A stretch of 64,000 nt of DNA. Source: Clostridia bacterium (GTDB lineage: Bacteria > Bacillota > Clostridia > TANB77 > CAG-508). Made by a program: the position numbers and the translations under genes. The notes beneath the pieces were generated by a model, which did no database searches, was not told the origin of the DNA, and saw nothing but the letters and a program-made list of their open reading frames with translations. Within the stretch, counting starts at the first letter, position 1; each line of letters opens with the position of its first letter. This document shows positions 5,759 to 36,049 of this stretch, piece after piece. The DNA is taken from contig JAFTJF010000011.1 in assembly GCA_017456555.1 (NCBI GenBank), forward strand, positions 223,831 through 287,830, written 5' to 3'.

Positions 5759-6883
5759 ATGGGAAAAATATATTTAGCATCACCTCATATGTCAGAGGAA
5801 AAATATGAAGAAAAATATGTAAAAGAAGCATTTGATACAAACTGGTTATCAACAGTTGGAGAAAATATAAATGAATTTGAAAAATCTGTAAGAGATTATT
5901 TAGGACAAAAATCAAGTGTTGCTTTAGGAAGTGGAACATCTGCAATTCATTTAGGATTAAAAGCTTTAGGTGTAAAAAAAGATGATATCGTTTTTGTATC
6001 AGATTTAACATTTTCAGCAAGTGTAAATCCTATAATTTATGAATCAGCAACACCTGTTTTTATAGATTCTGAATATGCTACATGGAATATGAGTCCAAAA
6101 GCTCTAAGAAAAGCATTTGAAAAATATACTCCAAAAGCTGTTATTGTAGTTCATTTATATGGACGAGCTGCTAATATGAAAGAAATTGTGAAAATTTGTG
6201 AAGAACACAATGTTCCAATTTTAGAAGATGCAGCAGAAGGTCTTGGAACTATCTATGAAGGAAAATATCTTGGAACATTTGGTAAATGTGGAGCACTTTC
6301 ATTTAATGGAAATAAAATTATTACTACAACAGGTGGAGGAATGCTTGTTTCTGATGATGAAGAATTAGTAAATAAAGTTAGATTCTGGTCAACTCAAAGT
6401 AAAGATCCAGCTCGTCATTATCAACATTCTGAAATTGGATATAACTACAGAATGAGTAATGTTTTAGCAGGAATTGGTAGAGGTCAAATGAAAGTTCTAG
6501 AAGCTAGAATTGCTAAAAAGAATGAAATATTTAATAAATATAAAGAAGAATTTAAAGATATTGAAGATATTGAAATGATGCCAGAAAATGAAAATGAAAG
6601 ATCTAATCAATGGCTATCAGCAATGACTATAAAAGAATCTTCAAAAGTAAAACCTCTAGATGTGATTCTTGCTTTAGAAAAAGAAAATATTGAATCAAGA
6701 CCAGTTTGGAAACCAATGCACTTACAACCAGTTTTTGAAAAATATGATTTCATAAACGAAAATGAAAGTGGAATAAGTGTTGGTGAAGATTTGTTTAACA
6801 GAGGAGTTTGTCTTCCATCAGATACCAAAATGACAAATGAAGATATGGAAAGAGTAATAAAAATTATAAAAAATTTATTTTAG
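5759..6883 (+). CDS. DegT/DnrJ/EryC1 aminotransferase, PglE-like
   Basis: A PLP-dependent sugar aminotransferase of 374 residues. The Schiff-base lysine is Lys186 in FNGNKIITTTGGG, and GSGTSAIHL, EDAAEGLG and YNYRMSN match the family. Placed directly after the 4,6-dehydratase, it most likely aminates the C4 keto group to give a UDP-4-amino-sugar of the bacillosamine type. The start ATG has GAGGAAGAG just upstream. It is full length and intact, in contrast to the second DegT-family gene at 9737-10787, which is frameshifted. Confidence 0.9.
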   Translation: MGKIYLASPHMSEEKYEEKYVKEAFDTNWLSTVGENINEFEKSVRDYLGQKSSVALGSGTSAIHLGLKALGVKKDDIVFVSDLTFSASVNPIIYESATPVFIDSEYATWNMSPKALRKAFEKYTPKAVIVVHLYGRAANMKEIVKICEEHNVPILEDAAEGLGTIYEGKYLGTFGKCGALSFNGNKIITTTGGGMLVSDDEELVNKVRFWSTQSKDPARHYQHSEIGYNYRMSNVLAGIGRGQMKVLEARIAKKNEIFNKYKEEFKDIEDIEMMPENENERSNQWLSAMTIKESSKVKPLDVILALEKENIESRPVWKPMHLQPVFEKYDFINENESGISVGEDLFNRGVCLPSDTKMTNEDMERVIKIIKNLF

Positions 6884-6916
6884 AAAATAATATATAAAAA
6901 ATGTACGGAGAAAATA

Positions 6917-7564
6917 ATGTATAAAAAATATGTAAAAAGATTTCTAGATATTGTAATAAGCTTATTTGCATTGATAGTGTTATCACCAGTAATGCTTATT
7001 GTTGCAATACTTGTTAGAATAAAACTTGGAAGTCCAGTAATTTTTAAACAAGAGCGTCCGGGAAAAGATGGAAAGATTTTTAAATTATATAAATTTAGAA
7101 GTATGTCAGATAAAAAAGATGAAAATGGAAAATTACTTCCAGATGCAGAAAGGCTTACAAAATTTGGTAAAATTTTAAGAGCAACTAGTTTAGATGAACT
7201 TCCTGAACTTGTAAATATTTTAAAAGGTGAAATGAGTTTAATAGGTCCAAGACCTTTAGCAGTTTGTTATTTGCCTTTTTATAATGAAACTGAAAAACAT
7301 AGACATGATGTAAGACCTGGATTAACTGGTTTAGCTCAAGTGAATGGAAGAAATGCTTTAAACTGGGAAGATAGGTTTGCGTACGATATTGAATATGTAA
7401 ATAATATTACTTTTATAAATGACGTGAAAATATTATTCAAAACAGTTTATAAAGTATTTAAACGCGACGGAGTTGTAACAAGAGGAACAGGAAAAACAAT
7501 AGATTTTGATGTGTATAGAAAAGAACAATTAGAAAATAACAAAAAAGATGAAGAACAAAAATAA
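6917..7564 (+). CDS. Initiating phosphoglycosyl transferase, PglC-like
   Basis: A 215-residue monotopic phosphoglycosyl transferase that moves a sugar phosphate from a UDP-sugar to undecaprenyl phosphate, starting the repeat unit. One N-terminal hydrophobic helix (about 12-35) is followed by KFRSM and by TSLDELPEL, whose Asp93-Glu94 pair occupies the same numbers as the catalytic pair known in Campylobacter PglC. GPRPL and DVRPGLTGLAQVNGR are also present. Its place after the dehydratase and aminotransferase indicates that the first sugar of the glycan is the amino-sugar they make. Only the single-helix short form is present, not the long WbaP type. Confidence 0.92.
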   Translation: MYKKYVKRFLDIVISLFALIVLSPVMLIVAILVRIKLGSPVIFKQERPGKDGKIFKLYKFRSMSDKKDENGKLLPDAERLTKFGKILRATSLDELPELVNILKGEMSLIGPRPLAVCYLPFYNETEKHRHDVRPGLTGLAQVNGRNALNWEDRFAYDIEYVNNITFINDVKILFKTVYKVFKRDGVVTRGTGKTIDFDVYRKEQLENNKKDEEQK

Positions 7565-7616
7565 TGATTATAACAAATAAATGTGTATAAAAATGCAGTA
7601 AGTAGGGATAAAATAA

Positions 7617-8879
7617 ATGAAAAAAAGAGTGTTAATTTTAAATTGTGGTACATTAGCTTCAACAGATATAAATATGTCATTAAGATATAATGATGAATTT
7701 GAAATTTGGGGAGCTTCAACAAATAAAAATCATGGGGTATATGTTTATGAAAAATATATAGACGATATACCTAATATTAGTGATGAGAATTTTATAAAAA
7801 TATTAAATCAAAAAATTGAAGAATATGATTTTAAATTTATATTTGCACCACATGAAGATTTAGCACTTTTTATGCAAGAACACAAAGATGAAATAAATGC
7901 AACGATAGTATGTTCAGAATATGAAACAGCTCTTCTTTGTAGATACAAATCAAAAACTTATGAAAAAATGAAGGAATATGATTTCATCCCTAAAACATTT
8001 AAGAAAGATGAAGTTGAAGAATATCCAGTTTTTGTAAAAAAAGATAATGACCAAGGTGGAAGACATGCATATAAAGTTCAAAATAGGGAAGAATTAGAAT
8101 TATATGCAGCTTCTGATGATATGATAATTTGCGAATTTCTACCAGGTGAAGAAGTAACTATAGATTGTTTTACAAATAAAAATGGAAAATTATTATATTG
8201 TAATCCAAGAGCAGCAGATAGAATGCTTGCTGGTATTGATGTTCATGCAAGAAGAATTGAGCTTTCAGACGAAATAAAATATATTGCAGAAAGTTTGAAT
8301 AAAGAAATAAAGTTTAGAGGATTTTGGTTTTTCCAAATTAAAAAAGATATTAATGGAAAATTTAAATTATTAGAAATTGCAACAAGGCTTGCTGGAGCAT
8401 TTGCTTTAAATAAAAGTTTAGATGTGAATTTACCATTAATGGCTCTAAAGGATTTTGATGGACAAGATGTAGAAATATTGTTTAATGATATAAAGGTTGA
8501 AGTTGATAAACAATTCTTTTCTAAATTTTTAATGGATATAGAATACGAAGAAGTATATATAGATTTTGAGTCTTGTTTTGAAAATATAAAAATAATTAAT
8601 ACTCTATTGATTATGTACATATATCAATGCGTTAATAAAAATAAAAAAATAACTTTAGTTACAGATGATGAAAATATAGATTTATTGTTAGAAGAAAAAA
8701 AGATAAACAAAAATGTTTTTTCAAAAATAATAAAATTTAATAACTTAGAAGACACTATAAATAATAAAGCAATTTTTATATCAAATAATGAAAAATTAAA
8801 AAATGAATTGAGAAAACAAAAAAATATATATTGTTTTTCAACTAATTCTATTGAAGCATTGATAGATTGGAAAGCTTAA
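7617..8879 (+). CDS. ATP-grasp family carboxylate ligase
   Basis: A 420-residue protein with an N-terminal pre-ATP-grasp Rossmann-like domain (KRVLILNCGT; FIFAPHED at about 78-85), a central ATP-grasp fold (VFVKKDNDQGGRH, ICEFLPGEEVTIDCF, FWFFQIK and LLEIATRLAG) and a C-terminal Rossmann-like part of about 130 residues. ATP-grasp enzymes activate a carboxylate as an acyl phosphate and join it to an amine. In this position, straight after PglC, it is a candidate for acylating or aminoacylating the 4-amino-sugar; the substrate is unknown. Start ATG follows AGTAGGGA. It resembles carbamoyl-phosphate-synthase-like ligases seen in other capsule loci. Confidence 0.8.
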   Translation: MKKRVLILNCGTLASTDINMSLRYNDEFEIWGASTNKNHGVYVYEKYIDDIPNISDENFIKILNQKIEEYDFKFIFAPHEDLALFMQEHKDEINATIVCSEYETALLCRYKSKTYEKMKEYDFIPKTFKKDEVEEYPVFVKKDNDQGGRHAYKVQNREELELYAASDDMIICEFLPGEEVTIDCFTNKNGKLLYCNPRAADRMLAGIDVHARRIELSDEIKYIAESLNKEIKFRGFWFFQIKKDINGKFKLLEIATRLAGAFALNKSLDVNLPLMALKDFDGQDVEILFNDIKVEVDKQFFSKFLMDIEYEEVYIDFESCFENIKIINTLLIMYIYQCVNKNKKITLVTDDENIDLLLEEKKINKNVFSKIIKFNNLEDTINNKAIFISNNEKLKNELRKQKNIYCFSTNSIEALIDWKA

Positions 8880-8898
8880 GTAGAAAGGTATTTATGTT

Positions 8899-9666
8899 AT
8901 GTTTGAAATGAAAAAGTTAGAAAAAGAAAATCTAACAATTGCTAAAAAATTCTTTAAAGAAATTAAATTTTATATGACCAAAACAGCTCTTCAAGGTTAT
9001 ATGGGAGAAGTTTTTGTTGATAATTTGGAGAATCCAGATTTTGCATGTGTTTTGCTTGGAAGATTTTTCTTTATAGATGGTAATCCGAATAATAAGTTAG
9101 CAAAAAAAGTATTAGCAAGTATTGATGATTATTACAAAACCATTATTGCTAATGAAAATTGGTTTGAAGCAATAGAAGATGTTTACAAAGATAAGTTTGA
9201 AATTGATTATAGATATTCAATAAAAAAAGATACAAAATTCGACAAAGAAAAATTAAATAAATTAATTTTAGATAAAAGTGAAGAATACGAAATAAAGCCA
9301 ATAGATAAAGAAATTTATAAAATTATAAAAGCAACAAATTCTTTTTCAACAAATATAAAAATGACAACTGATTATGAAAAATATGGAATTGGTTTTTGTG
9401 CAATAAATAAAGATAATGAAATTGTAGCAGTTATTACTTCAAATGGAATATATGATGACGGAGTTGAAATAAATATAAAAATTGAAGAAAATGATAGAGG
9501 CAAAGGACTTGGAACAATACTTTCTGCAAAAATGATTTTAGAATGTTTAGAAAGAAAACTTTATCCAAGTTGGGATGCTGCTAATTTAGATTCTGTTGGT
9601 TTGGCTGAGAAATTAGGATATGAAGTAGATTCGAAATATAGAATTTATAAAATTAACAGAGGCTAG
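8899..9666 (+). CDS. GNAT-family N-acetyltransferase (zwittermicin-resistance-like)
   Basis: A 255-residue protein whose C-terminal 110 residues are a GNAT fold: the acetyl-CoA pyrophosphate loop is RGKGLGT, followed by ILECLERKLYPSWDAAN and LAEKLGY. The long N-terminal region and the WDAANLDS motif recall the GNAT_acetyltran (zwittermicin A resistance) family rather than small ribosomal acetyltransferases. It lies within the sugar-modification block, so it may N-acylate an amino-sugar or an aminoacyl substituent. The acceptor cannot be read from sequence. Start ATG at 8899 has AAAGG ten bases upstream. Confidence 0.72.
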   Translation: MFEMKKLEKENLTIAKKFFKEIKFYMTKTALQGYMGEVFVDNLENPDFACVLLGRFFFIDGNPNNKLAKKVLASIDDYYKTIIANENWFEAIEDVYKDKFEIDYRYSIKKDTKFDKEKLNKLILDKSEEYEIKPIDKEIYKIIKATNSFSTNIKMTTDYEKYGIGFCAINKDNEIVAVITSNGIYDDGVEINIKIEENDRGKGLGTILSAKMILECLERKLYPSWDAANLDSVGLAEKLGYEVDSKYRIYKINRG

Positions 9667-9736
9667 AAAAATATAAATAATGCAGAATAAACAACAAAAG
9701 ATATGAAATATAAAAAGTATAAAAGGAAAACAATAG

Positions 9737-10787
9737 ATGGAAATAGGAAGCGAATATTGGGAATTTGATGAAGAATTAAATAAAGATAATAGAGAGTTTT
9801 GGAAAATAGGACAAGATGTAAGATTTACCTTGTCTGGAAGAACTTCAATATTTTATGTTCTAAAAAATATATTATTAAAAAGCCATATTCAAAAAGTATA
9901 TATGCCTTCTTATAGTTGTAGCTCAATGGTCCAAGCTTTTGATGATTTAGGAATTGAAGTTGAATATTATGATGTTTATTACAATGAAGGTTTAAAATAC
10001 AACATAGATTGTGATGAAGAATGTGATATATTTTTCGCAATGAACTATTTTGGATATTCTCGGAACTAATATGGATGAATATATAAAAAAATTCAAAGAA
10101 AAAGGAAAAATAGTAATTGAAGATATTACTCATTCTATTTTAAGCCAAAAAAGTCATAGTGAATATTCAGATTATCTTGTAGGAAGTTTAAGAAAATGGT
10201 TTCCAATAAGTAGTGGAGCAATTGCGGTGGCTATGAATTCTAATTTTGAATTAGATTTGAAAAATGGTTCAAACGAAGAATTAATTAATTTAAAAAATAA
10301 AGCAATGCAAAACAAAAAGAACTATATAAAAACAGAAGAAGGTTCTAAAGAAGAGTTTTTAAATCAATATGCTGAAAGTAATAAAATTTTAGAAAAAGAT
10401 TATCAAGATTATTCGATAGATTTAAAATCTTTTGAAATACTTATGGGAATAGATTTAGAAAAAATAAAAAGTCAAAGAAAAGAAAATACTAAAACTATTT
10501 ATGAAAAATTAAAAAGTAATTTTAATATAAGATTTTTAGTTGAGGAATATGATGAAGAAGATTGTTTATTATTTGTTCCAATTTTAATGAATAATGAAAC
10601 AAGAAATAATCTTAGAAAATTCTTAATTTCTAAAAATGTTTTTTTACCAGTGCATTGGCCATTAGAAGAAAAAATAAATAATATTTTTGAAAGAGAATTA
10701 TCTTTAATATGTGATCAAAGATATGAAAAAGAGCAAATAGAAGAATATGTTGATTTAATTATAAATTATTTTGAAAAAGGTGAATAA
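9737..10787 (+). pseudogene. DegT-like PLP aminotransferase broken by a +1 frameshift
   Basis: Two adjacent reading frames encode the two parts of one protein. The first (from ATG 9737, good ribosome site) ends at a stop at 10067-10069 after YFGYSRN; the second continues in another frame with GTNMDEYIKKF. Ignoring one base within TATTCTCGG (10055-10063) joins them as ...YFGYSGTNMDEY... and gives 349 residues, the normal size for this family. The second part carries EDITHSIL and the PLP-lysine motif GSLRKWFP, so the active site was once complete. No repeat tract lies at the break, so an old mutation or an assembly error is likelier than a switch. It sits next to the GNAT and FemX genes and may have supplied an amino-sugar or amino acid. 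Confidence 0.75.
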
Positions 10788-18800: not shown

Positions 18801-19796
18801 ATGAAAATATTAGTAACAGGTGGACTTGGATTTATTGGTTCACATACATGTGTAGAGCTTGCAAAACAAAATCATGAAGTTATCATTGTAGATAATTTAT
18901 ATAATAGCAAAGAAGAGGTTATTGATAAATTAAAACAAATAACAGGAAAAAGTTTTAAATTATATAAATATGATTTAGTAGAAAAAGAAAAAATAGAAGA
19001 AATTTTTGAGTCAAATGAAATTGATGCAGTAATTCATTTTGCAGGTTACAAAGCCGTTGGTGAATCAGTAAAAAAACCATTAATGTATTATTCAAATAAC
19101 TTACAATCAACAATAAATCTTTTAGAAGTAATGCAAAAATATGATGTAAAAAAATTAGTATTTAGTTCTTCTGCTACAGTTTATGGGGATCCAGGTAATC
19201 CAAAATATGTTGAAGAAATGGGAAGAGGGAAAACTACAAATCCTTATGGAACAACAAAAGCAATGATTGAACAAATATTAGAAGATTTATATGCTTCTGA
19301 TAATTCTTGGGATATTTCAATATTAAGATATTTTAATCCAGTAGGAGCTCATGAGAGCGGATTAATTGGAGAAGAACCAAATGGAATTCCAAATAATTTA
19401 ATGCCATATGTAATGAAAGTTGCAGCTAGAAAATTAGAAGTGTTAAGTATATTTGGAAATGATTATCCAACAGTTGATGGAACTGGAGTAAGAGATTTCA
19501 TACATGTTGTAGATTTAGCTAAAGGACATGTTTGTGCATTAGATAAAATGAAAAAAGGATTAAACATTTACAATTTAGGTTCTGGAAAAGGCGTAAGTGT
19601 TATGGAACTTGTAACAACATTTGAAAAAGTAAATGATATAAAAGTAAATTATAAAATCGTAGAGAGAAGACCAGGAGATTTGCCAGAATATTATGCAGAT
19701 CCATCAAAAGCATTAAATGAATTAGGTTGGAAAACAGAAAAAACATTAGAAGATATCTGCAGAGATTCATGGAATTATGAAAAAAATAATATGTAA
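18801..19796 (+). CDS. galE: UDP-glucose 4-epimerase
   Basis: A 331-residue extended SDR enzyme that interconverts UDP-glucose and UDP-galactose (or the GlcNAc/GalNAc pair) for the polysaccharide. The NAD site is TGGLGFIGSH at residues 7-16, then HFAGYKAVGES, SSSATVYGDP, the catalytic YGTTK, and LRYFNPVGAHESG; RRPGDLPEYYADP near the end is typical of GalE. It has a strong GGAGG ribosome site, is the last gene of the first polysaccharide operon and is followed by a strong terminator. Confidence 0.94.
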   Translation: MKILVTGGLGFIGSHTCVELAKQNHEVIIVDNLYNSKEEVIDKLKQITGKSFKLYKYDLVEKEKIEEIFESNEIDAVIHFAGYKAVGESVKKPLMYYSNNLQSTINLLEVMQKYDVKKLVFSSSATVYGDPGNPKYVEEMGRGKTTNPYGTTKAMIEQILEDLYASDNSWDISILRYFNPVGAHESGLIGEEPNGIPNNLMPYVMKVAARKLEVLSIFGNDYPTVDGTGVRDFIHVVDLAKGHVCALDKMKKGLNIYNLGSGKGVSVMELVTTFEKVNDIKVNYKIVERRPGDLPEYYADPSKALNELGWKTEKTLEDICRDSWNYEKNNM

Positions 19797-19810
19797 ATAT
19801 CAATAGATAT

Positions 19811-19856
19811 AACAACACATTCGCAATTGGGTAGAGAGCAGAATGTGTTGTTTTTT
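19811..19856 (+). terminator. Rho-independent terminator closing the first polysaccharide operon
   Basis: AACAACACATTC (19811-19822) pairs perfectly with GAATGTGTTGTT (19841-19852) around an 18-base loop and runs into a T tract. It separates galE from the pilus operon. Confidence 0.92.
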
Positions 19857-19897
19857 ATAGTAATAAAAATGTATAAAAAATGTAATTGATTTGTATA

Positions 19898-19926
19898 TTG
19901 AATAAAAAATACATATGTAATATAAT
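19898..19926 (+). promoter_or_regulatory. Promoter of the pilus leader and operon
   Basis: TTGAAT (19898-19903), a 17-base spacer and a perfect TATAAT (19921-19926). Transcription should begin near 19933, giving a leader of about 205 bases before the adhesin start at 20138. The leader holds a small ORF, a (TA)10 tract and a terminator hairpin. The 19797-20137 gap is fully accounted for by these elements. Confidence 0.8.
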
Positions 19927-19958
19927 AAAATAAATATAATAAACAAAGGAAAAAAAGA

Positions 19959-20021
19959 ATGAGTTGTCAAAACCTTAAAACCCTAGAGCCTGTATATATA
20001 TATATATATATACGTAGCTAA
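19959..20021 (+). CDS. Leader peptide ORF containing a (TA)10 switch
   Basis: A 20-codon ORF with a good ribosome site (AAAGGA, 19945-19950, eight bases before ATG). It reads MSCQNLKTLEPV, then YIYIYI from the TA tract, then RS and TAA at 20019-20021. Repeat number decides the ending. With one more or two fewer TA units the frame after the tract becomes YVANLIRELKKT and stops at TAA 20047-20049, exactly where the following terminator hairpin begins. With nine units a TAG comes at once. I infer a regulatory leader peptide rather than a functional protein. Its coding status rests on the ribosome site, the frame logic and position; I know no described family. Confidence 0.6.
   Translation: MSCQNLKTLEPVYIYIYIRS
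19993..20012 (+). repeat. (TA)10 simple sequence repeat in the pilus leader
   Basis: Ten uninterrupted TA dinucleotides between G and CGTAGC. It is the longest dinucleotide tract seen in the window and lies inside a small translated leader, so slippage shifts the reading frame after it. Downstream sequence CGTAGCTAA carries a stop in two frames and is open in the third. Confidence 0.95.
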
Positions 20022-20047
20022 TTTAATAAGAGAATTAAAAAAAACGT

Positions 20048-20110
20048 AAGACTATTTTGCTTATGTGTTTTTGTGTTATGCCAAAACATATAAGTAAGAT
20101 AGTCTTTTTT
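20048..20110 (+). terminator. 24-bp terminator hairpin between leader ORF and pilus genes (putative attenuator)
   Basis: The 5' arm 20048-20071 pairs over all 24 positions with 20083-20106 (three G-U pairs), with an 11-base loop, and ends in a run of six Ts (20105-20110). It stands 27 bases upstream of the adhesin start and downstream of the operon promoter, so it must be read through for pilus expression. The long leader frame would stop at 20047-20049, at the foot of the 5' arm; a ribosome there should block about half of the stem. The present (TA)10 frame stops 28 bases earlier and should leave it free. Confidence 0.88.
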
Positions 20111-20137
20111 ATTTCTAAAATATAAAAAGGTGAATGT

Positions 20138-22219
20138 ATGAAATTTAAAAAATATATAAATAAAGAAAAAGTTAAAATATTAATACAGATATTAGTTTTC
20201 ATGCTAATTACTATATTTATACGTACTAAATCACTGGCAGCTGAGATTGATGTTAGTGCTTATAGTTCAAGTGGTAAAGTATATTGGGATAGTATGTGTG
20301 CTGATTCTCAATATGGTGGCTATAAATCATCATCTAATGGCTCAAAAGCCAATAGTCATATTGAATCTGTTAAATTAAATAATATTGATGTGGCATGGTC
20401 AGATTCTAAAAACAAATGGGGATTGGCTAAAGGAGATGGCTCTGGTTCTGCACTATCGGCTTACTATCCAAATTCATCAAGCAATAATATGACTAACGCA
20501 GATTTAGTTATTACTCCTGAAAAAGGATATCGTATAAAAAAAATAGTAATATCTTGTACATATTATGGACCATATATGTGTGAAACTTGGAATGATGGAA
20601 ATGCTTTTGATGACAATTTTGAACTGGATACTAGAGGTGCATTTATTATAAGAAATTTGAATAGCAAATATTTCTCGCATGTACCTAGTATTGCTGATAC
20701 AAATAATAACTATTTCATTTTAATCGAATTAGAACCTTATAATCCAGAAATATATGTTGAATATGACTATGGTAATATTGAGGAATTTATGGATATAAAA
20801 AATACGTCTTTTGAAACTGCGGATGGATGGCTTAATTCAGATATAAATAATAATTTAGGAATAGGAAGTGTTTTAACGACATCAACACAGTTTAAATATG
20901 CGTATGATAGTCAATTAACAGGTGATTCCGCTGCTCAAGAAGCTGCAAATTGGAAACATTATACTAATATTGTTTCAGAAAAAGCAAAAGAAGAAGCTGC
21001 TGAGGCAGGATACTATTTTGCGGGGTGGAACGCAGGATATTACGACAATGCGAGTATAACTCAAAATACTGCGGATTCTTATAATAAATATACTTATAAT
21101 TTATCGGAAACACATGGTAATGCAGAATATGAAGAAACCGAAGAAGTTGTGCTAGCGACAAATGTAAGATTAATTGCACAATGGGAACCGATTGAAGTTG
21201 AAGTAATTAAGAAAGTAACTGGTTTAGATAACACTGTTTATGAAAATCAATCTCGTACGTATAAGTTTATTTTGCAAGAGAAAGATGCTAGTGGTAATTG
21301 GAATGATTATGGAGAAAACTTTTCTATTGAAATAGAAGGTAATGGGACCAAAAGTGCTAATATTTCTCCAATTTCGGCAGGAACATATAGAGTTGTTGAA
21401 GTTGAAGGAAATGAAGATTGGCAAATTGAGGATAATTCTAAAATGTATCTTTCTGTATCTGATAAAGAGGAATTTACATTATCCTATAATAATACTAGTG
21501 CACAAACCATTGTCACAAATGCATATACAAAAGAAACACCAAAGGTATCAGTTAATGTTATAAAAAAATGGGAAGATAATAATAACAGTTATAATTTAAG
21601 ACCGACAAGTGTAATTGTTGAATTATTACAAAATGGTGTAGCAATAGCAGATGCTGAGGTTAATGCTGAAAATGGATGGCAATATACTTTTGGAAATTTA
21701 GAGATATATGATACAGCGAATAATGAATATATTTATAGTGTAAGAGAAAAAGATGAAGTTGATGGTTATTTTCTTAAAGAAATAAATAAAACTGACAATA
21801 TTTTTACAATAACAAATACTAAATACGGAACTATAAAAATTAATAAAGAAGACTTAGTAACTGGAGAAAAATTAGCAGGAGCAGTATTTAAGTTAGAAAT
21901 AAAAAATGCTGATTCACAATGGGAAACTGTTCAAGAATATACTAGTGATTCAAATGGAATTATTGTTATAAATAATCTTACATATGCTACATATAAATTA
22001 ACAGAAATTAGGGCACCAGATGGATATAATTTAAATTTGGAAAATGCAGAAGTGGAATTAGAAATTAATGAAGCTAATGCAAGTTATGAATTAACAGTAT
22101 CAAATAAGGCGAAAAATGTTTTGCCAGCAACTGGTGGTGGGAGAATACAGGTAATATTATTAATAGTAGCAATAATATTAATAATATTGCCAAATAAATT
22201 CAAAAAGAAATTATTATGA
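20138..22219 (+). CDS. LPXTG-anchored adhesin with Cna-B/SpaA-type domains, probable pilus tip
   Basis: A 693-residue surface protein. A signal peptide (about 1-33, ending near SLAAE) is followed by a unique N-terminal region, an InlB-like repeat area around residues 285-350 (FAGWNAGYYD ... LIAQWEP), a Cna-B domain (about 468-560, VSVNVIKKWEDNNN) and a SpaA-like domain (about 565-650) with LTEIRAPDGYN, whose Glu suits an intramolecular isopeptide bond. The sorting signal is LPATG (662-666), a hydrophobic stretch and a KFKKK tail. Followed by a shaft-type pilin and a class C sortase, it is best read as the tip adhesin. Its ligand is unknown. AAAAAGGTGA precedes the start. Confidence 0.85.
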   Translation: MKFKKYINKEKVKILIQILVFMLITIFIRTKSLAAEIDVSAYSSSGKVYWDSMCADSQYGGYKSSSNGSKANSHIESVKLNNIDVAWSDSKNKWGLAKGDGSGSALSAYYPNSSSNNMTNADLVITPEKGYRIKKIVISCTYYGPYMCETWNDGNAFDDNFELDTRGAFIIRNLNSKYFSHVPSIADTNNNYFILIELEPYNPEIYVEYDYGNIEEFMDIKNTSFETADGWLNSDINNNLGIGSVLTTSTQFKYAYDSQLTGDSAAQEAANWKHYTNIVSEKAKEEAAEAGYYFAGWNAGYYDNASITQNTADSYNKYTYNLSETHGNAEYEETEEVVLATNVRLIAQWEPIEVEVIKKVTGLDNTVYENQSRTYKFILQEKDASGNWNDYGENFSIEIEGNGTKSANISPISAGTYRVVEVEGNEDWQIEDNSKMYLSVSDKEEFTLSYNNTSAQTIVTNAYTKETPKVSVNVIKKWEDNNNSYNLRPTSVIVELLQNGVAIADAEVNAENGWQYTFGNLEIYDTANNEYIYSVREKDEVDGYFLKEINKTDNIFTITNTKYGTIKINKEDLVTGEKLAGAVFKLEIKNADSQWETVQEYTSDSNGIIVINNLTYATYKLTEIRAPDGYNLNLENAEVELEINEANASYELTVSNKAKNVLPATGGGRIQVILLIVAIILIILPNKFKKKLL

Positions 22220-22290: not shown

Positions 22291-24006
22291 ATGAAAAAAC
22301 AAATGTTAAAAATAATCAATTTACTAATAGTAATAACATTATTAATAATGGCATTTATGCCTAAAGTAAATGCTGAATTAGATTTGAGCAAGACCGAAGG
22401 TTCTTTAAAAATTACAAAATATGAGGTGGGAGATAAAGGGCAATTAGTTTTAGAAGGGGTAACTTTTGATATTTATAAAGTTGATGATGATGAAACTTCA
22501 ATAGAACTTCCAACAGATAGCACAATTTTAGCTACAAAACAATCAAAAACAACAGATGAAAATGGTATTGTAACTTTTTCAAACTTAGAGTTAGGTAGAT
22601 ATTTAGTTGTAGAATCTGATGCACCATCAAATGTTGTATCTAAAATTGCTAACTTTTTAGTAGACATACCAATGACTTCAGATGATGGGACATCTTTAAT
22701 TTATGATGTAGAAGTATCACCAAAGAATAACACTGTTTATGGTGGAGTTGTTTTACAAAAAGTCGATGCTGAAACTAATGAAGGATTAGCTGATGTAGAG
22801 TTTGAACTACAAAAATTAGATGGAACAAAGTGGATAAAATATGGAGAAACACTAGCAACTGCTGACGGAACAACAGATTTAGATGCAACAGGAAATGTTT
22901 TAGAAAAAGGTAAGGTTGAAGTAACTGGATTACCAGCAGGTTCATATAGATTTGTGGAAAAAACAACATTAGCAGGATATATATTAGATAACAAAACAAC
23001 ATATGAATTTAATGTATCTTTAGGTGATGATGGAAAAACTGTTGTAGATAATAGTTTAATAATTGTAAAAAATGAAAAACCAACATTAAGCAAAGAAATA
23101 ACTTCAACATTAACAGAAGGAAGTGTTAATTTAGGAGATACAGTAAGTTACAAAATAGGAACACCAATTCCAAGCATGGTAGACGAATTAGTAACATATA
23201 AATTTAATGAAACAATCGATGCAGGATTGGACTATACAGAAAATACATTAAAAGTGACTGCAATCAATTCAACAGGTGCCAAAACAGAATTAACATTAGG
23301 AACAGATTATACATTAAATGTAGCAACAGATGAAGCAGAATTTGAAATTATTTTTACAGATGCAGGAAAAACAATATTAGCATCAAATGAAAACTTAGAA
23401 GTTGTATATGATGCAGTGTTAGATATGGATTCAGATGCAACTACACTAGGAAATAATACAAATACAGTATTAACATATTCTACAATAGTAAAAGAAGATT
23501 ATACAGGAATAGAAAGTACTGAAACTACAAATACACTTACAGCTGATACACCAGTATATACAGGTGGACTATATATTAAAAAAGTGGATAATGAAAATAA
23601 TATTATTCCAACAGGAGCAACTTTTAAAGTGGCAACCAATGAAGAAAATGCAAAAAATGGAGTTTATATTGACGGAATAGAATTAATAACAGGAACAAAT
23701 GGTTTGGTTTCATATAAAGGTTTGGCATATGGAACTTATTGGCTAGTTGAAACCAAAGCACCTACATATAATGAAACAAATTCTGAGGGAGAAACAGTAG
23801 AAAAAAATTATAACTTATTAAGAAAACCGGTAGAAATAACTGTAAATAATAGTACATATGCTGAAAATGTCGCAATAGAAATTATAAACAAAAAGGGCTT
23901 TGAACTTCCAACAACTGGTGCAATTGGTTCATTGATTGTATCAGGATTAGGAGTAGCAGTGATTATATTAGGTGTAAAAGCATATAGAGGAAAAGAAGAA
24001 AAATAA
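22291..24006 (+). CDS. Major pilin, SpaH/EbpB type, LPXTG-anchored
   Basis: A 571-residue pilus shaft protein. A signal peptide ends near MPKVNAE (about residue 29). The first domain ends in a pilin-motif-like YDVEVSPKN whose Lys145 is the likely nucleophile for sortase-made cross-links. Cna-B-type domains follow (VYGGVVLQKVD; YRFVEKTTLAGY), then a long isopeptide-class domain (about 265-410) and a last domain with an E-box-like YWLVETKAPTYN. The sorting signal is LPTTG (539-543), a hydrophobic helix and a KEEK tail. The order adhesin-pilin-sortase is that of known Gram-positive pilus islands. AAAAGGAG precedes the start. Confidence 0.9.
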   Translation: MKKQMLKIINLLIVITLLIMAFMPKVNAELDLSKTEGSLKITKYEVGDKGQLVLEGVTFDIYKVDDDETSIELPTDSTILATKQSKTTDENGIVTFSNLELGRYLVVESDAPSNVVSKIANFLVDIPMTSDDGTSLIYDVEVSPKNNTVYGGVVLQKVDAETNEGLADVEFELQKLDGTKWIKYGETLATADGTTDLDATGNVLEKGKVEVTGLPAGSYRFVEKTTLAGYILDNKTTYEFNVSLGDDGKTVVDNSLIIVKNEKPTLSKEITSTLTEGSVNLGDTVSYKIGTPIPSMVDELVTYKFNETIDAGLDYTENTLKVTAINSTGAKTELTLGTDYTLNVATDEAEFEIIFTDAGKTILASNENLEVVYDAVLDMDSDATTLGNNTNTVLTYSTIVKEDYTGIESTETTNTLTADTPVYTGGLYIKKVDNENNIIPTGATFKVATNEENAKNGVYIDGIELITGTNGLVSYKGLAYGTYWLVETKAPTYNETNSEGETVEKNYNLLRKPVEITVNNSTYAENVAIEIINKKGFELPTTGAIGSLIVSGLGVAVIILGVKAYRGKEEK

Positions 24007-24074: not shown

Positions 24075-24962
24075 GTGAAAAAAGATAAAATTGGATTGCT
24101 AGTAATTTTAATAGGTATAATGATTGTAATATATCCAGTTATTGCCAATATTCTTGTATCTTATACACAAACGAATGTTATTTCAAATTATAATGAAATA
24201 ATTGAGCAAATGGAAAAAGAACAAATTGAAAAAGAGATAGAAAAAGCTAGAGAATATAATAACCGATTAAATTTAGAAAGTGAAATAAAGATACATTCAG
24301 ATGAAGAAAAAGAAGAAAAAACGAGTTATCTTAATGTTTTAAATATTGGAAAAATAATCGGCTATATAGATATTCCTAAGATAGATGCATATTTGCCAAT
24401 ATATCATGGTACGAATGATAATGTATTACAAGCTGGTGTTGGACATGTGGAAAGTAGTTCTTTTCCAATTGGAGAAAAGAATACACATGCAATATTGGCT
24501 GGACATTCTGGGTTGGCGAGAACTAAAATATTTGATGATATTGATGAGTTAAAAGATGGTGATATGTTTTTTATTTATATGTTTGGAGAAATGTTTGCAT
24601 ATGAAGTTGATCAAATAAAAGTTGTATTACCCGAGGATACGAAAGATGTACAAATAGAACCGGATAAAGAATATGTAACGCTTCTTACATGTACACCATT
24701 TGCAATAAATTCACACAGATTGTTAGTTCGAGGCGAAAGAGTAGAAGGATATGTAAAAGAAGAAAAACAAGAAGTAAAAGAACAAATAGTAGATTCTTCT
24801 CAAAAATTGGATGAAAAAAATCAAAAAAGCCAAAATGATATATATATTATAATTGTAGTTTTTTTAATATTAATACTAATTGGAATAGTCGTTATTTTAA
24901 AAATTAGAAATCCAAAAAAGAAAAATAGAAGTAAGCCAAGAATAAGTAGAATAAAAAAATAA
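24075..24962 (+). CDS. Class C (pilin-polymerising) sortase
   Basis: A 295-residue membrane-bound transpeptidase with an N-terminal signal-anchor helix (about 5-30), a sortase barrel and a C-terminal membrane helix followed by a basic KKKNRSK tail, the double-anchored layout of class C enzymes. Catalytic residues are His144 (AGHSGL), Cys206 (TLLTCTP) and Arg219 (LLVRGER). It should link the LPXTG pilins encoded just upstream. GTG start with AGGAGAG six bases upstream. No housekeeping (class A) sortase is seen in the window. The region about 110-125 (KIDAYLPIYHGTND) lacks an obvious DP(W/F/Y) lid motif. Confidence 0.92.
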   Translation: MKKDKIGLLVILIGIMIVIYPVIANILVSYTQTNVISNYNEIIEQMEKEQIEKEIEKAREYNNRLNLESEIKIHSDEEKEEKTSYLNVLNIGKIIGYIDIPKIDAYLPIYHGTNDNVLQAGVGHVESSSFPIGEKNTHAILAGHSGLARTKIFDDIDELKDGDMFFIYMFGEMFAYEVDQIKVVLPEDTKDVQIEPDKEYVTLLTCTPFAINSHRLLVRGERVEGYVKEEKQEVKEQIVDSSQKLDEKNQKSQNDIYIIIVVFLILILIGIVVILKIRNPKKKNRSKPRISRIKK

Positions 24963-25053: not shown

Positions 25054-25082
25054 TTGATATTTATAGGTGTTAATGATATAAT
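25054..25082 (+). promoter_or_regulatory. Promoter of the second glycan operon
   Basis: TTGATA (25054-25059), 17-base spacer, perfect TATAAT (25077-25082), 36 bases before the Wzm-like start at 25118 and just after the pilus terminator. Confidence 0.85.
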
Positions 25083-34379: not shown

Positions 34380-36049
34380 GTGGAAAAAGTTAAAGAAAAA
34401 GTTGTTAATATTTGTAAAAAAATAGCAGTACATCCAGAAGATATTGAAAGTAAGTTTTTAGAGTGGTTTGATTCTAATAAAAGATTTGCATTTTTAACAG
34501 CATTAATTGTTGGAATTATTACTCATATAACTTTTATAACAGAAATGATTTTTAGCCAAGATGGTTTATGGAACTCATTAACATATTCTATACCAAGTGC
34601 TTGGGAATTCAGTATCGGTAGATGGGGAATATTTTTAGCAGACAAGCTTGTAAATAATTTGGCAATACCTAATATTACTGGAATTGCTAGCATTTTTATA
34701 ATATCAATTGCAACAGTATTTGTTGTTGATGTTTTAAAATTAAAAAATAAGATAACAATATTTTTATCATCAGTTGCTATGGTTGTTGCACCAACATTAA
34801 CCACAACAATGATTTTTGCTTATACATCAGTTGCTTATTGCACAGCAATGCTACTAACAGTTTTAACTGTTTGGTTAATTTTTAAAGAAGTGAAAAATCG
34901 CCTATATATATATATATCTATAAGGGTTTAGAGGGTGTTCTTGCAATAATACTTTTTGTTATTTCACTAGGAATTTATCAAAGTTATATTGGTGTTGTTA
35001 TTGGATTAACAGTAATGAGATTGATAAGAGATTTATTTGATGATGAAATTAGTACAAAGTGGTTTTTTATAAATGGAATTATAATGGTACTTATAGTTGT
35101 TATAGGTGGACTTGTTTATTTAGGCGTTACAGAAATAGTTTTAAGTAATATGGGATTAGAACTATCAAACTATAAAGGAGCAGAAAATATCAGTATAAAA
35201 AACACATTGACTAATTTACCATCAAGTATTAAAAAGGCTTATAAAGATTTTTGCTCATACTATCTAAATGATTTAATTGTATATAATGAAATTTATTTAA
35301 GAGATCTTTTTTATAAAATAATGTTTGCATCTGTATTTATATTAGAAGGAATTTCTATGATTACAAACAAACTTTACAAAAAGCCTTATAAAATCTTTTT
35401 AATTACAATAGCAAATGCTGTATTACCAATTGCACTTAATGCAGTTCTACTTTTGACAACAGACACTTCAACTTATGTATTGACAGCTGCTCAATTAATA
35501 TTAATGATTCCATTTTCAGCAATGATTTGTGAAATTGCAGGAAAGAAGATGACTTTTATATTTAGATGGGCGACTTTAGTAAGTATGTTTTTAGTTGTAT
35601 TTACATATTACTTAGCAGATAATGTATCATATCATTGTTTAAAACAAACATATAATCAAGCATATACAACTGTTATTAGAATTGTAGATAGAATTGAACA
35701 AACAGAAGGTTATACAAAAGAAGGATTAGTTTTAATTAACGGAATAATCGAAACTAATATGGATTATAGATATCAAAGAATGAGTCCTTTAGGAGATTAT
35801 ACTGTTGGTATGTTTTTCAAAGAATGTCCAGTATTTCACGGAACATATTCTGGAATGGAAGGAACTTGGATGAATTTCTTCACAAACTATATGGGAATGA
35901 AAGTTCAACTATGTTCTGTAGGAGATTATCAAAATATTGTGCAAACACCAGAATATCAAGAAATGGGGATTTGGCCAGCAGAAGATTCTGTTAAACTTAT
36001 AAACAATATTATTGTTGTAAAATTAAGAGAACAAGCAATAATGCCATAG
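34380..36049 (+). pseudogene. GtrII-like glucosyltransferase, out of frame at a (TA)7 tract (probably phase-variable OFF)
   Basis: The first frame (GTG 34380, GGAGAG at 34368-34373) encodes about 180 residues with several membrane helices, then reads YIYISIRV and stops at 34929-34931. The rest continues in another frame, open without a Met through KGLEGVLAIILF, ISLGIYQSYIG and VMRLIRDLF to 36049. Removing one TA from the tract at 34903-34917 joins them into 555 residues, a normal size for the GtrII glucosyltransferase family; gaining two does the same. Multi-pass protein that would transfer glucose from undecaprenyl-phosphate-glucose to a surface glycan. The repeat at the exact break and intact coding on both sides favour reversible switching over decay. 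Confidence 0.82.
34903..34917 (+). repeat. (TA)7T tract at the GtrII-like frameshift
   Basis: Seven TA units plus T between CC and CTATAAGG. Read in the upstream frame it gives Tyr-Ile repeats and a stop; one unit fewer restores ...YIYIYKGLEGV. It is the second long TA tract of the window. Confidence 0.9.

Follow-up and report, generated by a model that had tools for sequence, protein, structure and literature searches.

The gap between an upstream galE-like gene and a pilus operon in the window (64,000 nucleotides of a Clostridia bacterium, contig JAFTJF010000011.1, positions 223,831 to 287,830) very probably carries a slipped-strand, phase-variable transcription attenuator, as far as its sequence allows such a function to be read. 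The first-pass annotation had proposed a phase-variable attenuator at this place, and the proposal gains support from the recurrence of the cassette with varying numbers of TA units (n): in 123 of 139 related elements one of the three phases reaches or crosses a hairpin, and the other two fall short of it. The open reading frame, the TA tract, the stops and the hairpin are seen directly, as is their conservation in related elements.

All features of the window locus lie on the forward strand. The upstream galE-like gene, an epimerase by Pfam, has on its 3' side a terminator-like hairpin with a T tract at 19811..19852 (fold of -16.9 kcal/mol for 19805-19862). It is followed by a sigma-70-like candidate promoter, TTGAAT-17-TATAAT, at 19898..19926; with 10 of 12 matches this site is weak by itself, because promoter-like sites are no commoner across the region than in shuffles (30 found by the promoter scan against 39.2). 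A putative ribosome binding site AAAGG at 19945..19949 was read in the sequence, and sites resembling the Shine-Dalgarno sequence (SD-like) are common in the relatives. The leader frame begins with the ATG at 19959 and, as assembled with n=10, occupies 19959..20021 and reads MSCQNLKTLEPVYIYIYIRS up to its stop. Within it, the head ACCCTAGAGCCTG at 19980..19992, a degenerate form of which is common to the related elements (reversed-pattern controls gave 0), precedes the (TA)10 tract at 19993..20012, the proposed slipping repeat. A perfect TA run of this length occurs only once in the assembly (1.67 Mb, with an estimated completeness of 88.5%). A second, imperfect TA run (88%) lies at 34903-34922 of the window, apparently within the frame of a membrane protein, and again reads Tyr-Ile.

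The reading of the three phases given in the first-pass annotation, together with its promoter-like site, ribosome site, leader frame and (TA)10 tract, was found in place. When n is a multiple of three (9, 12), translation would end at the TAG at 20015..20017, 30 nt ahead of the hairpin; when n leaves a remainder of one, as with the n=10 of this assembly, it would end at the TAA at 20019..20021, 26 nt ahead. Both are predicted OFF phases. When n leaves a remainder of two (8, 11), the frame stays open to the TAA at 20047..20049, which straddles the hairpin start and is predicted to be ON. The hairpin with T tract that had been claimed before the pilus genes does fold, as a predicted intrinsic terminator of 26 pairs at 20048..20106 (-28.6 kcal/mol, loop 20075-20079) with six T at 20105-20110. 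A promoter and terminator scan, whose stem and loop rules differ from those of a fold, did not list a terminator at this site. Rfam at a relaxed threshold gave three sub-threshold matches to eukaryotic RNAs; the hairpin accounts for two of them and the tip pilin gene for the third, and all were set aside as chance.

The operon behind the hairpin encodes, by domain matches, a tip pilin or adhesin (Cna_B, SpaA; 20138..22219), a backbone pilin (GramPos_pilinD1, GramPos_pilinBB, SpaA; 22291..24006) and a pilin sortase (24075..24962). The next strong promoter-like site (25054-25082, 11 of 12 matches with TG before the -10) precedes an ABC-2 transporter gene, and the pilus genes therefore look like a separate unit.

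According to the proposed mechanism, the RNA would begin past the promoter at 19898-19926, with translation of its leader by a ribosome starting at 19959. Replication slippage would alter the TA count and hence the frame past the tract. In two of the three phases the ribosome would leave 26-30 nt ahead of the hairpin, whose formation would then stop transcription; the window assembly is predicted to be in this OFF state. In the third phase (n=8 or 11 in the window), the ribosome would arrive at the foot of the hairpin, the terminator would be blocked, and the pilus genes would be transcribed. In most relatives, the third phase would instead carry the ribosome across the 5' arm of the hairpin, with the same blocking of the terminator. 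We infer promoter use, slippage in vivo and its rate, termination and ribosome-dependent readthrough.

Taken alone, the window locus is suggestive of an attenuator and no more, because a 12-codon open third frame is unremarkable in DNA of 26% GC and promoter-like sites occur there at chance frequency. One locus proves little; relatives were therefore sought, and the weight of the argument comes from them. From 154 unique elements, 146 were left after the removal of eight with fewer than 130 nt past the tract, and 139 were analysed after seven more had been dropped that had no in-frame start 9-30 nt upstream (L052, L058, L069, L070, L080, L082 and L189). Of the analysed elements, which come mostly from the window's family, 39 were taken from loci of the named genome collection and 100 from other loci.

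A terminator-like hairpin, defined as a hairpin with a T run and a dG of -9 or lower, was found in 123 of the 139 elements as against 12 of 417 shuffles; three of the 16 elements failing this definition stand before retroelement-type MutS_I genes. An SD-like site stands ahead of 130 of 136 leaders; when each sequence was shuffled once, 56 of 136 had one. The stop of the longest phase lies within 12 nt of the hairpin, in it or past it in all 123 elements that have one, so that the third open phase expected by the first-pass annotation is indeed kept in the relatives. In 5 elements it either straddles the start of the hairpin or precedes it by no more than 12 nt; it lies in the 5' arm in 11, in the loop in 37, in the 3' arm in 60 and past the hairpin in 10. 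The placing of this stop at the hairpin foot, also part of the earlier description, thus holds for the window (20047-20049) but not for most relatives, where the stop is in the loop or the 3' arm. The second-longest phase in the same 123 elements ends 10-97 nt short of the hairpin (median 28). A strict layout, with the long stop inside the hairpin and the other phases at least 10 nt short of it, is present in 111 of the 123 elements, against 36.9 expected when the spacer alone is shuffled.

The long phase corresponds to an n mod 3 of 0 in 132 of the 139 elements, of 1 in six and of 2 in one, the window itself; the phase code shifts among elements while the layout persists. The elements are related, and at 75% identity the 139 fall into 33 clusters, the largest holding 86. 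A hairpin is present in 24 of the 33 cluster representatives, and in 22 of these 24 the long phase extends to the hairpin or beyond, with the other phases at least 10 nt short.

Canonical elements also carry a small hairpin, mostly CATAG/CTATG, about 31-50 nt past the tract and overlapping the 5' arm of the terminator; its loop measures 8 nt in 51 of 98 canonical elements. A 5-nt complement to the terminator 5' arm, located upstream of the arm, was observed in 106 of 113 elements against 13.2 expected. This small hairpin might serve in pausing or in antitermination.

Purifying selection on the leader peptide was expected, but the codon-conservation test of the long frame did not reveal it. In 120 canonical elements the peptide of this frame is not conserved, as there is no codon-position pattern (mean entropy of 0.69, 0.73 and 0.71 per codon position) and pairwise differences comprise 3779 non-synonymous and 332 synonymous ones. 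The distance from the tract to the 5' arm departs from its mode in 49 of 113 anchored elements, and 37 of these 49, which are not independent, differ by multiples of three. Since spacer indels are mostly multiples of three while the peptide is unconserved, the position of the ribosome seems to matter and the peptide does not, as judged from the sequences. Of the 120 elements, 83 have A and 37 have G as the third base of the first early stop; as the middle base of the second, 114 have A and six have G, so that a stop is kept in every case. These counts are descriptive, the set of 120 having been picked by those stop positions.

The number of TA units ranges from 4, the search minimum, to 18 in the related elements. 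The value n=10 occurs in 79 of the 139, a dominance that may reflect a fairly stable tract. Among 32 pairs with at least 85% flank identity, taken from different genomes or from paralogues, n differs in 16, by 1 to 6 units; examples are 8 against 10 units at 96.6% flank identity and 15 against 9 at 96.1%. Few elements are in the long, predicted ON phase: 12 of the 139, 10 of the 132 that have the common form and three of the 33 cluster representatives.

Other readings of the same arrangement have to be weighed against heritable switching. Alternating runs can provoke slippage, and the ribosome or the RNA polymerase could slip on a (TA)n of fixed DNA length, giving a minor shifted fraction and a low constant readthrough; the dominance of n=10 agrees with this. 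Elements with similar flanks nevertheless differ by 1 to 6 units, which means that the DNA itself changes. The count n=9 is also rarer than n=8 (6 against 27, p 0.0003, a value that kinship makes optimistic), yet the comparison of n=9 with n=11 (6 against 10, p 0.45) is not significant. We regard slippage of this kind, in place of slippage at replication, as very improbable. Still less probable is an attenuator sensing amino acids, in which the Tyr-Ile run would slow the ribosome when Tyr tRNA or the AUA-decoding Ile tRNA is scarce and no switching of DNA would be involved. The run does read Tyr-Ile in every phase, and trp-type attenuators likewise consist of a leader with a terminator behind it. 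However, the genes examined downstream belong to pili, surface proteins, retroelements and restriction or defence-like systems rather than to biosynthesis, and in the window 35 nt separate the end of the run from the hairpin, which is probably too long a distance for a ribosome stalled in the run to mask the arm. Sensing of this kind also leaves the combination of one long phase with two early stops unexplained.

The reading to which we give the least credence is that a repeat and terminator without regulatory meaning have simply spread, the leader frame being due to chance. The elements are multi-copy and related, and a single open frame of 12 codons is likely to arise by chance; but chance accounts poorly for the SD-like sites (130 of 136), the in-phase indels (37 of 49) and the strict layout (111 of 123 against 36.9), and the kinds of genes located downstream are often phase-variable. 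The evidence is most consistent with a phase-variable attenuator acting through replication slippage.

The design itself has been described before, contrary to the earlier statement that no such system was known. In Streptococcus gallolyticus, the pil1 and pil3 loci have GCAGA repeats in a leader ORF followed by a stem-loop terminator (Danne et al. 2014, PMC3894217). There, a pil1 leader ending at least 28 nt before the hairpin gives a mostly-low mixed profile, and one ending about 4 nt before it or inside it gives a high profile, which was proven genetically; high pilus transcription was lost with chloramphenicol (PMC3894217). The likeness to pil1 and pil3, within that account, extends to a short repeat in a leader ORF with a ribosome site, a terminator hairpin, an adhesin-pilin-sortase operon and a leader end set by the phase (PMC3894217). 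Several features that characterise a pil1-type leader are found in the window as well: a leader ORF that lies between the promoter and the operon and has a ribosome site, a repeat within it whose unit is not a multiple of three, a predicted terminator between the leader and the first gene, and a phase that moves the stop to the hairpin. The window distances, 26-30 nt for OFF and overlap for ON, are near the rule of at least 28 nt for low expression given for pil1 in the same account (PMC3894217).

Differences are equally clear as far as the two loci are described there. The repeat unit is the GCAGA pentanucleotide in pil1/pil3 and the TA dinucleotide here; both other phases are high in pil1, whereas one ON phase of three is predicted here; and there are two loci in S. 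gallolyticus, compared with up to 30 copies per genome and non-pilus genes in the present case (PMC3894217). No adjacent GCAGA pairs were found in the window at 19700-20200. By analogy, the window leader would work like the pil1 leader; the likeness is one of design, and kinship of the two is not claimed. In trp-type attenuation, as summarised in the same source, the position of the ribosome on the leader decides whether the terminator forms (PMC3894217); that position is set by tRNA charging there and would be set by a heritable repeat number here. The gut commensal Bifidobacterium breve has a sortase-dependent pilus with an ON/OFF switch by replication slippage (PMC9187656), and to that extent resembles the window; the opening of its abstract mentions neither a leader ORF nor a terminator. 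Beyond the two pilus loci of one Streptococcus, searches of an open-access library brought up no other leader attenuator of the phase-variable type, nor any leader attenuator joined to diversity-generating retroelements. The mechanism is thus already known; what is new is the TA unit, the logic of one ON and two OFF phases, the multi-copy use, the taxon and the targets, which include type IV pilin-like genes, a retroelement target gene and restriction or defence-like genes.

A search of other genomes for the leader, TA repeat and hairpin upstream of surface genes, which the first-pass annotation had advised, yielded a recurrent cassette. A degenerate pattern covering the head and the tract matched four places in three genomes, the window included, among 53 genomes of the window's genus; scans of 96 genomes and of these 53 with this pattern gained two further same-genus genomes. 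The window's own genome has one cassette found, its own. All four elements of the genus have in common the apical hairpin TTTTTGTGTTATGC (20060-20090 in the window), the other three being L003, L004 and L008 in genomes G041 and G045; it is kept although the downstream genes differ (pilus genes or MKKTNK.. proteins). In three related pilus loci of the same genus (G029, G001 and G004) the gap leading up to the first pilus gene contains no repeat; these are the informative ones of five genomes sampled, the contig of G022 ending at the gap and the long gene of G035 exceeding the stretch examined.

In the window's order, 23 of 385 genomes and 12 of 48 genera have matches, with all reversed-pattern controls at 0; the 12 genera are an upper figure, as some single-copy matches on short contigs may be mis-binned (L056, whose flanks are 99.5% like those of L174, is a possible case). 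One genus of the window's family, g27, holds 153 copies in 12 of its 31 genomes, with up to 30 per genome and none in the remaining 19; 74 of these places were taken directly as stretches and others as search loci, and the analysed set covers part of the 153. A variant head, ACCGTTG, is carried by most of the copies in genome G141, which suggests that the cassette was homogenised or has recently expanded in that lineage. Of 43 matching stretches in the named genome collection, 42 are titled Clostridia, Clostridium or Clostridiales, and one Streptococcus orisratti. In the genus of the latter, 2 of 197 genomes match, S. orisratti itself being one of them. A scan across the class with a narrower exact pattern gave no match in 391 genomes, a set that includes 18 from the window's order; this pattern also misses the window, and distant forms could escape it. 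The viral-contig scan gave a single match, L052, which was dropped for want of the cassette architecture.

The genes behind the switches were sorted by a crude motif screen. Membrane-anchored proteins with a GGITG..LDTSDA stretch follow 38 of the 139 elements, and type IV pilin-like N termini follow 31; a further 63 precede other genes, several of which resemble divergent members of these two groups, and seven have no clear downstream ORF. Within 2.2 kb of 124 elements, the (F/Y)VW(I/V)P motif was found in 39 cases and a prepilin-like motif in 43. Pfam gave partial support on 16 downstream proteins, with sub-cut-off N_methyl matches in two and an FGE-sulfatase match just below the cut-off in one. 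The S. orisratti cassette precedes an HsdR gene with n=16 in a short phase, and that of the second Streptococcus genome precedes an HKD+SNF2 defence-like gene with n=12 in the long phase, which runs through a 9-bp hairpin; in both elements of this pair (L032 and L229) one phase crosses a small hairpin.

In genome G211, two neighbouring TA leaders accompany a diversity-generating retroelement (locus L231, G211:C5:24000-36000, 6668-10535). The first, with n=9 in the long phase and a normal terminator-type hairpin, precedes a gene of 432 aa that matches FGE-sulfatase below the cut-off; the second, with n=10 in a short phase, precedes a MutS_I-bAvd-RVT_1 cassette. The template and variable repeats measure 139 nt and differ at 23 positions, 22 of them at template A, and the variable repeat lies inside the 432-aa gene. 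The locus thus combines what characterises such retroelements, namely a reverse transcriptase (RT) with Avd, a template repeat and an A-directed variable repeat in a target gene. Genome G122 has a template/variable pair with 24 of 25 differences at A beside an RT-like fragment, and no TA leader was found near this pair; no clean template/variable pair was found in G385.

The phase layout and a strong hairpin recur in the leader of the G211 RT cassette and in those before the MutS_I genes of G122 and G385, but there the hairpin is followed by no T run; the short G385 gene was termed MutS_I-like on account of its sequence rather than a Pfam match. The hairpins of the MutS_I leaders L017 (the n=5 element), L040 and L156 end in CTTTGCCACC/CTTTACCACC instead, and these leaders failed the terminator definition because no T run follows the hairpin. 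Leaders with such T-less hairpins may work otherwise.

Put together, the portable TA-repeat attenuator may form a genome-wide system in one uncultured Clostridia family, with dozens of surface-protein loci under independent, mostly-OFF switches. In at least one genome it would place a retroelement target gene behind an ON-phase switch and the RT cassette behind a TA leader whose hairpin lacks a T run, so that random on/off switching and targeted hypermutation would act on the same surface coat. This broader picture is put forward tentatively and, in our judgement, falls a little short of being probable; its odds are lowered because the hairpins of the RT-cassette leaders are without a terminator-type T run.

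The element of the window is an entry to a larger system than the first-pass annotation suggested, a pil1-like logic in Clostridia that uses another repeat and is multiplied before many surface genes. Over a hundred natural variants are available for testing how far a ribosome has to travel to defeat a terminator. The ON/OFF code would be readable from sequence: TA counts in reads would indicate which surface proteins of uncultured bacteria are predicted to be expressed, and could also tell whether the genes of diversity-generating retroelements are switched.
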